Shown: positions 15,917-19,279 of the stretch, piece by piece | How the letters are laid out: each line of letters begins with the position of its first letter | How positions within the stretch are numbered: position 1 is the stretch's first letter | Assembly: GCA_027449865.1 (NCBI GenBank) | Contig: DAIDKV010000110.1 | Coordinates: forward strand, 1-64,000 | Direction: 5' to 3' | Source: Planctomycetales bacterium | GTDB taxonomy: Bacteria; Planctomycetota; Planctomycetia; Isosphaerales; Isosphaeraceae | Length of the DNA: 64,000 nt | Notes under the pieces: generated by a model | The model's input: the letters and a program-made list of their open reading frames with translations, nothing else | Told to the model about the DNA's origin: nothing | Databases searched by the model: none | Position numbers and translations under genes: made by a program

Positions 15917-16771
15917 CTAACGTGGCTGGGCCAGGCTTAGCGGCTTTTCCAGTCCGTGCCGCTCCAGCAGCTCGACATCGGTGAGGATCTCCCGGGTCGG
16001 TCCATCGGCGACGACCTTCCCGCCGTCGAGCAGAACGACCCGGCCGCAGACGTCCAGCACCATCTCCAGGTCATGGGTCGCGATCAGGAGGGTTGCGTCC
16101 ATGGCCTGCATCAGTCCGATGAATCGGCGACGGCCGCGCGGGTCGAGGTTGGCCGTTGGCTCGTCGAGGACCAGCACGGAGGGCCGACACGCCAGCACCC
16201 CGGCGAGGCAGACCCGCTTCCGCTCGCCGAAGCTCAGGTGATGCGGCGGCCGATCGGCCGCGCCGAGCAGGTCGACACGACGCAGGCACTCCTCGGCCAC
16301 CGCCCGGGCCTCGGCCGCCGACATTCCGAGGTTCCGCGGCCCGAAGGCGACGTCCTCAATCACCGAATTGCAGAAAAGCTGATCGTCGGGATCCTGGAAG
16401 ACCAGCCCGACGCGACGGCGGACCTCTCGGGCGTTCCGATCGTTGACCTCCAGGCCGTCGATCCAGACGCTCGCCTCGCGCCGACGCTCGTTCGCACCGC
16501 CGACCCCGTGCGTATGCCCGACCGTACCGCGTCCCTTGCCAGGCAGCAATCCGTTGAGGTGCAGCAGAAACGTGCTCTTGCCGGCCCCGTTCGGTCCGAC
16601 CAGCGCGACGGACTCACCGGCCGCGATCGAGAGATCGACGCCCCGGAGCGCCTCTCGCCCATCGGGATATCGATACGAGAGCCCGCGCACACGCACCGCC
16701 TCGACCAGCCGATCCGCCGATGGACGCTCGGATCCCTCTCGAACCTCCGCGTCCGTCATCGCCGACCCCAT
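15917..16771 (-). CDS. nikO: Nickel ECF transporter ATPase
   Basis: 284-residue ABC ATPase of the CbiO/NikO type. Walker A is GPNGAGKST (residues 59-67), the Q-loop is FQDPDDQLF, the signature is LSFGERKR in place of LSGGQ, Walker B is VLVLDEPT, and the switch histidine is in ATHDLEM. An insertion after Walker A (about 79-100) contains GHTHG and may touch metal. It is the last gene of a three-gene transport operon, 30 nt after nikQ. The nickel rather than cobalt assignment rests on the upstream NikR-like operator and the fused NikMN component. A start at 16759 (MTDAEV) is also possible. Confidence 0.88.
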   Translation of the reverse strand: MGSAMTDAEVREGSERPSADRLVEAVRVRGLSYRYPDGREALRGVDLSIAAGESVALVGPNGAGKSTFLLHLNGLLPGKGRGTVGHTHGVGGANERRREASVWIDGLEVNDRNAREVRRRVGLVFQDPDDQLFCNSVIEDVAFGPRNLGMSAAEARAVAEECLRRVDLLGAADRPPHHLSFGERKRVCLAGVLACRPSVLVLDEPTANLDPRGRRRFIGLMQAMDATLLIATHDLEMVLDVCGRVVLLDGGKVVADGPTREILTDVELLERHGLEKPLSLAQPR

Positions 16772-16801: not shown

Positions 16802-17452
16802 TTAGAAGTCGGACGGGATCGTCCCGTCCCAGCCCCGGGCGATCATCGCGTCGTGGACCCGTTCGGCGCGCTCGAAGGTCCGAAGAAAAAGCTGGCCGAT
16901 CAGGCCGCCGAGGACGGACCACGAGAGCGAGCCCCCGCGCCGGAAGGTTCGAGCCCGACGAGCCGTCGCCATTCGATCGACCTCGTCGACCAGAACGTGC
17001 CGGTAGCGTTCCATGAACTGGAGCGTCGCGACCAGCACCGCCGGCATCCCCAGCTTCCGCATTCCGATCAAAAGCCGGGGAAAAGGCGTGGTCCCGGCCA
17101 GAACGATCATCGTCAGCAGTGCCAGGCCGTTCTTGATCAGGATTCCGGAAGCGACCGCGACGAGCCCGTACCGGGGCCGGTCGGGATGCGCCGGCGCGAT
17201 CATCGCGACCAGGAACGCGACGAGCACGAAGAGCCCCATCCATCGCCGGCCCAGCTCGCGGGGCGGAATCCCCGAGAGTCCGACCAGAAACGCCAGAAAG
17301 AGCCCAACCGCCCCGAACCCGCGCCAGGCGACGACCGGCAAGCCCAGCACGACGACGATCAGGGCGACCGCCCCCAGAAGCTTGACACGGGCGTCGAGCC
17401 GATGGAGCGGGCTCGAGCCATGTCGATGGCGCTCCAGCCCGTCAGGCCGCAT
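16802..17452 (-). CDS. nikQ: Nickel ECF transporter transmembrane T component
   Basis: 216-residue CbiQ/NikQ family permease. It begins with the family's amphipathic N-terminus (SSPLHRLDARVKLL), has four to five membrane helices, and ends with the coupling-helix region containing MATARRARTFRRGG and ERAERVHDAMIARGW. It couples the NikO ATPase to the NikMN substrate component. The ATG at 17452 lies inside the end of nikMN (11-nt overlap), which suggests translational coupling. A longer frame reaching 17515 would overlap nikMN further and lacks the family N-terminus. Confidence 0.87.
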   Translation of the reverse strand: MRPDGLERHRHGSSPLHRLDARVKLLGAVALIVVVLGLPVVAWRGFGAVGLFLAFLVGLSGIPPRELGRRWMGLFVLVAFLVAMIAPAHPDRPRYGLVAVASGILIKNGLALLTMIVLAGTTPFPRLLIGMRKLGMPAVLVATLQFMERYRHVLVDEVDRMATARRARTFRRGGSLSWSVLGGLIGQLFLRTFERAERVHDAMIARGWDGTIPSDF

Positions 17453-18416
17453 CGAGCGTCGTCCTCTCTCGCTTCGCCCTCGGCAGAACCCGGGCCATCC
17501 CGAGAGCAAGCCCAAACACGGCGAGCGTTCCGACGACTCCAGCCATCGCCGTCGCGACTCTCGCCTGCTCGATGCCCGGAAGCTTCAGCTCGTAATCGGC
17601 CATCGGCGAGGGAAGCGCCGGCGCTGCCGATTCGGCGGGCAGGAAGCCCAGCCGCTCGCCGACGAATTCGAGCCCGTCGGGGAACTCGCTCGCAAACGGA
17701 GCCAGGAAGATGGCGACCGCCAGGGCGACCGCCAGCCCGCCGAGCATCGTCCGGCCCCACCGCCCAGCGCCGGTGGACGGGCCCGTCTCGGGATCGAGCA
17801 GGTCAGGCCGTCGAAGCAGGACGTAACGGACCACGATCCCGGTGATGAGGGCCTCGCCGATCCCGATCAACGAATGCACCATCGCCATCCACGAAAGGAT
17901 GCGCGGGAAGTCGCCCCGTCGCCCCGAGGCGGCCAGCTCCATCGCGAACGCCCCCGAGGCCAGCAGCACCGAGAACCAGGCCGCGGCCATCGCTCCGATC
18001 AGCGTCCCCTTCGGTCCCGAGATGGCCCTCCGGATCGGCGCGTAGATCGCATAACCGCCAACCGACCCGATCAGGCCCATGTTGACGAAGTTGGCCCCGA
18101 GCGCCGTCAGGCCGCCGTCGTTGAACAGGAAGCACTGGACAATCAGCACCGCGGCGACGACCACCGCCCCGGCCCAGGGTCCCAGGAGCACGGCCGAGAG
18201 CACCCCGCCAAGCAGGTGCCCCGAGACGCCCGGCCAGACCGGGAAGTTCACCATCTGGGCCGCGAAGACAAACGCCGACATCGTCCCCATCAGAACCGTC
18301 GATCGCTCGCCGTGCTGCCGTTCCAGTTTCCGGACCGCGTGGATCAGTCCGGCCATGCCGATGGCGCCGGTGGTCGCCGCGACGGTCGGATTGAGAACCA
18401 TGTCGGGTATATGCAT
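17442..18416 (-). CDS. nikMN: Nickel ECF transporter substrate-binding component, NikM-NikN fusion
   Basis: 324 residues. The start at 18416 gives MHIPDMVLNP, the family N-terminus in which Met1 and His2 take part in metal binding. The upstream in-frame sequence is non-coding. CbiM/NikM helices follow, including AAQMVNFPV and GVSGHLLGG with a conserved His. A second, NikN-like section has a helix near 235-255 and a final helix before the cytoplasmic end. It is the first gene of the nikMN-nikQ-nikO operon, with a promoter overlapped by a NikR-type palindrome about 90 nt upstream. Cobalt cannot be fully excluded without binding data. Confidence 0.86.
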   Translation of the reverse strand: MHIPDMVLNPTVAATTGAIGMAGLIHAVRKLERQHGERSTVLMGTMSAFVFAAQMVNFPVWPGVSGHLLGGVLSAVLLGPWAGAVVVAAVLIVQCFLFNDGGLTALGANFVNMGLIGSVGGYAIYAPIRRAISGPKGTLIGAMAAAWFSVLLASGAFAMELAASGRRGDFPRILSWMAMVHSLIGIGEALITGIVVRYVLLRRPDLLDPETGPSTGAGRWGRTMLGGLAVALAVAIFLAPFASEFPDGLEFVGERLGFLPAESAAPALPSPMADYELKLPGIEQARVATAMAGVVGTLAVFGLALGMARVLPRAKRERTTLDAA

Positions 18417-18491: not shown

Positions 18492-18520
18492 ATGGTAGCC
18501 GCGGTATGTCGTCCCGTCAA
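18492..18520 (-). promoter_or_regulatory. Promoter of the nickel transport operon
   Basis: On the minus strand, TTGACG (18515-18520) and TACCAT (18492-18497) are spaced by exactly 17 nt. The -35 hexamer lies inside the NikR-like operator at 18504-18531, so binding there would exclude RNA polymerase. Confidence 0.6.
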
Positions 18521-18531
18521 AAACTTCATAC
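18504..18531. promoter_or_regulatory. NikR-type operator
   Basis: The plus strand reads GTATGT, 16 nt, TCATAC. The established E. coli NikR site is GTATGA-N16-TCATAC, so 11 of 12 half-site bases match at the exact spacing. It sits 88 nt upstream of nikMN and overlaps the -35 element of that promoter. No nikR gene is in the window. Confidence 0.75.
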
Positions 18532-18640: not shown

Positions 18641-19279
18641 GTGAAACTCGAATCGCTGCGGAAAGAGTACGAACGCTTTCAACTCTCCGAGGGAGAGGTC
18701 GAGGCCAACCCCATCCATCAGTTCGGCCTCTGGTTCGAACAGGCGATCCAGAGCGAGCTTCCGGAGCCGCACGCGATGACGCTGGCGACGGCAACGCCCG
18801 ACGGGCGGCCATCGGCCCGGATCGTCCTGCTCCGGGGCTACGACGACCGTGGCTTCGGCTTCTTCACCAACTACGAGAGCCGAAAGGGTGAGGAACTCGC
18901 CGCGAACCCCTGGGGAGCACTGGTGTTCTACTGGCACGATCTGGAGCGTCAGGTCCGGATCGAGGGGCGGGTCGAGAAGGTCGATGTGGAGGAATCCGAG
19001 CAATACTTCCACTCGCGTCCCACGGCGTCGCGGATCGGGGCGTTGGCGTCGCCGCAAAGCCGGGTGATCGCGAGCCGCGACGTGCTGGAGTCGATCTTCG
19101 GCGAGTACGAGCAAAGGCACTCCGACGGCGTGGTCCCGCGTCCGGCTCACTGGGGCGGCTACCGGGTGATCCCCGACGCGATCGAGTTCTGGCAGGGGCG
19201 TCCGAGCCGACTCCACGACCGGCTCCGATACACCCGGCTTCCCGATGGCGGCTGGAAGCTCGAACGTCTCGCCCCGTGA
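18641..19279 (+). CDS. pdxH: Pyridoxamine 5'-phosphate oxidase
   Basis: 212 residues, close to the usual length of about 218. The FMN-binding split-barrel is clear: [40 protein letters not shown], then [22 protein letters not shown]. The C-terminal substrate-binding motif is [24 protein letters not shown]. The enzyme makes pyridoxal 5'-phosphate from the 5'-phosphates of pyridoxine and pyridoxamine. The start is a GTG at 18641 with GGAGG (18628-18632) 8 nt before it. A longer frame to 18506 would run through the NikR-type operator and is rejected. It is divergent from nikMN. Confidence 0.93.

Follow-up and report, generated by a model that had tools for sequence, protein, structure and literature searches.

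The 28-bp inverted repeat at positions 18504-18531 of the window, the whole 64,000-nt stretch of planctomycete DNA analyzed here, is very likely a NikR operator that controls the nickel importer operon nikMN-nikQ-nikO and would repress it when nickel is sufficient. This reading brings together the repeat itself, a nikR gene in the same genome, the overlap of the site with the promoter of an importer whose metal we infer to be nickel, and the conservation of the site along with its co-occurrence with NikR. Read on the minus strand towards nikM (18531-18504), the operator is GTATGAAGTTTTTGACGGGACGACATAC, which corresponds to GTATGTCGTCCCGTCAAAAACTTCATAC on the plus strand (18504-18531); its form, GTATGA-N16-ACATAC, differs at one position in 12 from the E. 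coli consensus GTATGA-N16-TCATAC. The first-pass annotation had given GTATGT-N16-TCATAC for this interval, which is exact in coordinates and letters, with GTATGT being the weaker half in plus-strand view. The consensus on which it relied also matches the published E. coli operator, bound by NikR in the nikABCDE promoter under nickel excess (PMC7055735).

The promoter that had been proposed along with this operator, TTGACG/TACCAT at 17-nt spacing with the -35 inside the repeat, was confirmed from the sequence of the minus strand. The -35 element TTGACG (18515-18520) lies between both half-sites, the -10 element TACCAT (18492-18497) follows at 17 nt, and the right half-site CATAC (18508-18504, minus strand) falls within the spacer between the two. 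Orthologous promoters support both elements, with TTGAC-N17/18-TANNAT kept in most of those that carry this operator type. From the end of the operator to the nikM ATG (18416) there are 87 nt.

The genes downstream, all on the minus strand, begin with nikMN (17445-18416), encoding an ECF metal-binding S component of the CbiM/NikM fold (PF01891, E 2.3e-58) fused to a NikN-like PDGLE domain (PF13190, E 2.8e-13), and continue with nikQ/cbiQ, the ECF transmembrane (T) component (16802-17515; TIGR02454 at 116 bits, over the cut-off; PF02361), and nikO/cbiO, the ECF ATPase (15917-16771; PF00005; TIGR04521, E 2.3e-64). This single operon thus unites the MHIP N-terminus of NikM, a NikN-like domain and the Q and O subunits of a NikMNQO transporter, and the MHIP N-terminus, common to relatives and to the solved 4m5b, supports the nikM start codon. 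A search of the window against Rfam returned no cobalamin or NiCo riboswitch at threshold, only a meaningless mir-598 match far below the cut-off, and riboswitch control of the operon was set aside on that ground.

The first-pass annotation had tied its proposal to the presence of a nikR gene in the genome, and one such gene is present (C204:56185-56415; PF08753 at 107.8 bits, E 2.3e-30), on a contig unlinked to nikM. Its product combines a ribbon-helix-helix N-terminus with a NikR_C domain bearing three His and one Cys, and can be aligned with 1q5v, 2bj1 and 2ca9 along almost its entire length. The HVH, QHHH and Cys columns (His/His/His/Cys), which hold nickel in NikR structures, align with those of the solved proteins. 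The ribbon-helix-helix domain starts with VRFSVAIGG, labeled here type I; a type II NikR, VRFSVSLEADLL-like, occurs in two genera of Isosphaeraceae (g2 and g21) and in several other families of the class. The DNA-contact strand, RFS, is like that of H. pylori NikR and unlike the RVT of E. coli NikR, so the operator specificity is not readable from the protein. In the nikR loci of two genomes with type II NikR we observed 27-bp NikR-like palindromes (L045:1238-1264, GTGTGACGAATACCCGATTCGTAATAC; L056:2093-2119, GTATTACAATTTTCAGGTTTTTCACAC), and the position of the first of these, shortly before nikR, suggests autoregulation in that genome.

By chance, patterns like the nikM operator are expected about one to two times per genome, and a single site proves little. 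In pattern searches, each with a reversed-pattern control, GTATG-N18-CATAC occurred once in the 8.48-Mb genome, at the nikM operator, against two copies of the control, and GTATGA-N16-TCATAC at up to two mismatches gave 38 matches against 29; within the window, every other match to this consensus has three mismatches. Counts so near the control would suit a chance palindrome, in which only the promoter is conserved, as an AT-rich stretch before TTGAC-N17-TANNAT, the half-sites are flanking sequence and no regulator is involved. The interior TTTTTGAC, conserved as strongly as the half-sites, would suit it as well. Since genome-wide enrichment of the motif is unclear, the argument for an operator must rest on position and conservation. 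Two further sites were considered and set aside: the only other one-mismatch site (C11:7538), which overlaps an oxidoreductase gene start beside an HlyD-type gene, appears to be a chance match, and the two-mismatch site that precedes a LarA-family gene (C269:45212) falls within a different open frame. The surroundings of nikR and the urease locus of the same genome contained no site at up to two mismatches.

Conservation was assessed in 45 Isosphaeraceae genomes including the source genome, with nikM in 43 and NikR in 42, by searching 45 nikM upstream regions of 200 nt each for GTATGA-N15/16-TCATAC, using dinucleotide shuffles as the control. The site was found in 21 of the 45 regions at up to one mismatch and in 27 at up to two, compared with shuffle means of 0.015 and 0.225 (maximum 2), respectively. 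It starts 54 to 130 nt before the nikM start codon and mostly spans TTGAC-N17/18-TANNAT in the same register; Aquisphaera insulae (G041) carries the perfect consensus with no mismatch. The operators of genus g15 are 27 bp long (N15), and the 27-bp spacing of G018, G048 and G050 retains the half-sites, within the 27-28 bp published for NikR operators (PMC545781). Part of this conservation, that of the interior, is promoter conservation, and the left half-site is more constant than the right. However, a chance palindrome beside a conserved promoter is highly improbable in view of these counts, and also because GTATG and CATAC persist at the shortened spacing and in promoters with an altered -35 or rearrangement (G049, GTATGATGATTTCACCAAACGCCATAC; G051, GTATGATGTTTTTCGACGAACGCCATAC), which makes the constraint on the operator separable from that on the promoter. 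The right half-site, moreover, falls in the spacer, a part of the promoter where the sequence is under little constraint. Second nikM copies in two genomes (L097 in G048 and L098 in G049) have no operator and apparently stand right behind another coding region; the first copies have one.

The site also followed the type of NikR. A recognizable type-A-like or type-B palindrome occurs in each of the 16 genera that combine a type I NikR with a readable nikM promoter: the site is present at up to two mismatches in eleven (g1, g4, g5, g6, g7, g8, g14, g15, g16, g17 and g19), a degenerate site with 3-4 mismatches stands at the aligned place in g10, and a type-B palindrome, KTATGCGC-N13-GCGCATAC, is found in four (g3, g9, g12 and g13), the degenerate and type-B sites being assigned by eye as a matter of judgement. 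Neither palindrome was found in any of the four genera lacking a detected type I NikR, namely g2 and g21 (type II), g20 (none) and g18 (none; 77% complete genome). Were the genera independent, the odds of such a split would be 1 in 4845 (1/C(20,4)); being related, they are not fully so. The degenerate sites in g4, g6, g10 and part of g8 escape a generic TATG-N17-19-CATA test, and these genera therefore rest on aligned position and mismatch scores.

We scanned 84,980 species genomes (257 Gb, with the source record possibly left out) for a composite of the exact operator and the -35 element, GTATGANSTTTTTGAC-N7-CAYAC, and obtained 17 matches: 14 before nikM, one at a contig end (L142) and two before nikA. 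In 13 planctomycete loci nikM begins 59-102 nt downstream, and in L148 (= G042) it lies at the locus edge. The two matches in Rhizobiales, from Kaistia terrae (L154:3646-3673) and a Hyphomicrobiales MAG (L144:2836-2863), stand just before nikA genes that pass the equivalog model TIGR02294 with 698 and 676 bits. NikA genes are a classical NikR target. Every readable match of the composite precedes a predicted nickel importer gene, across two kinds of transporter and two phyla, and its recurrence before nikA argues further against chance.

The profile libraries name the transporter proteins cobalt-type (CbiM, CbiQ), with the CbiM models scoring below their cut-off, and CbiM and NikM are close relatives; the site might accordingly be a real operator bound by a different metal regulator in front of a cobalt importer. 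We consider this very unlikely. The nearest solved S component is 4m5b/4m58, which we take to be the nickel protein NikM2, at 90 bits against 35 for the CbiM 5x3x, and the B12-synthesis markers CobN and CbiC were searched for in the source genome and neither was found, whereas urease alpha was. The motif fits published NikR sites, a NikR is present, and both the tracking of NikR type across genera and the same site before nikA in Rhizobiales speak for NikR as the regulator. Urease, five LarA-family (Lar_N) genes (contigs C23, C77, C190, C269 and C208; L084-L088), the lack of CobN, CbiC and riboswitch matches, and the presence of NikR and its predicted site together favor nickel over cobalt as the metal of the importer. 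The claim that the operator identifies the metal more firmly than the proteins do is therefore fair with respect to the profile names, although the nearest structure also points to nickel and an operator does not in itself measure which metal is carried. The site would indicate what is taken up by an importer to which the profiles give a cobalt-transporter name. The five LarA-family genes possibly encode further nickel-pincer enzymes.

From the NikR family we infer nickel dependence, tetramer binding, repression and a steric block of the polymerase. By this analogy, a nickel-loaded NikR tetramer would grip both GTATG half-sites when nickel is sufficient, covering the nikM -35 element and most of the spacer; because the operator extends over the -35 and the beginning of the spacer, bound NikR should exclude the housekeeping RNA polymerase, and uptake would stop. 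When nickel is scarce, NikR would be off the DNA and the importer would be made, feeding urease and other nickel enzymes. Alternatively, NikR might bind and activate, or act mainly on the divergent neighbor pdxH, which starts on the plus strand near 18641, about 109 nt from the operator; H. pylori NikR can activate as well as repress (PMC9860126). This is extremely unlikely, as coverage of the nikM -35 and spacer is a repressing position, and of the 25 loci examined only 7 have pdxH next to nikM, while the operator is retained in genera without pdxH there, which assigns the site to nikM. Repression of nikM by nickel-loaded NikR is thus the reading we prefer.

The less ordinary part of these results, and a prediction, is the type-B palindrome together with the drift of half-sites inside one family. 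The type-B palindrome is 29 bp long and keeps a constant distance of 11-12 nt behind TTGACN (L017, L106, L107, L108, L019, L094, L020 and L021), a position that apparently places it over the -10 region, and the genera that carry it have a NikR of the same type as the source genome. We tentatively propose, with slightly less than even confidence, that NikR control of this one operon was remodeled within a single family: most genera would use a 27-28-bp GTATGA-type operator over the -35, g3, g9, g12 and g13 a 29-bp palindrome over the -10 with the same NikR orthologue, and g6 mixed half-sites. If true, the repressor and its operator would have co-evolved while the operator was relocated within the promoter. 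The family also supplies naturally occurring variants of the operator of a single regulator, through which the drift of repressor specificity could be studied.

Two observations concern individual genera. The operators of g6 (L102-L104 and L022) are hybrids, for example GTGTTAC...TTCATAC, which joins a delta-proteobacterial left half to an enterobacterial right half. In g18 (L012, from G021), TTGAC and a type-B left half, ATATGCGC, are kept and the right half is absent; nikR was not found in this 77% complete genome, a possible natural loss pair of half-site and regulator.

The NikR-operator reading of the first-pass annotation is supported by the nikR gene in the genome, by the family-wide conservation of the operator with its overlapping promoter and its target, and by the composite before nikA in two Rhizobiales. 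On these comparative grounds, the nikM-promoter site is very probably a well-supported example of a familiar type of switch, here newly recorded for Isosphaeraceae, and it lends comparative support to the existence of a NikR regulon in planctomycetes. Our literature search found no paper on NikR sites in planctomycetes, and a 2009 survey listed no Ni/Co transporter for its three planctomycetes (PMC2667541).

The operator of E. coli nikABCDE is alike in its half-sites, its 28-bp length, its overlap with a nickel-importer promoter and the presence of NikR in the genome. The planctomycete system differs in its host, in targeting the ECF importer nikMN-nikQ-nikO, in its unlinked nikR and in one half-site base (ACATAC). 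In delta-proteobacteria, NikR sites of the form GTGTTAC-N13/14-GTAACAC have been predicted before nikMNQO (PMC545781); these share the type of target operon and the 27-28-bp inverted repeat, both lengths of which occur in Isosphaeraceae, whereas the half-site described here is of the enterobacterial GTATGA type, and only g6 has GTRTTAC-like left halves, paired with TCATAC/TCACAC. The predicted nikA sites of Kaistia terrae and the Hyphomicrobiales MAG carry this operator 53-54 nt before the importer gene, and TTTTTGAC occupies the internal position that it has in planctomycetes, but the importers that they precede are of the NikA-dependent ABC kind, with a binding protein unrelated to ECF transporters.
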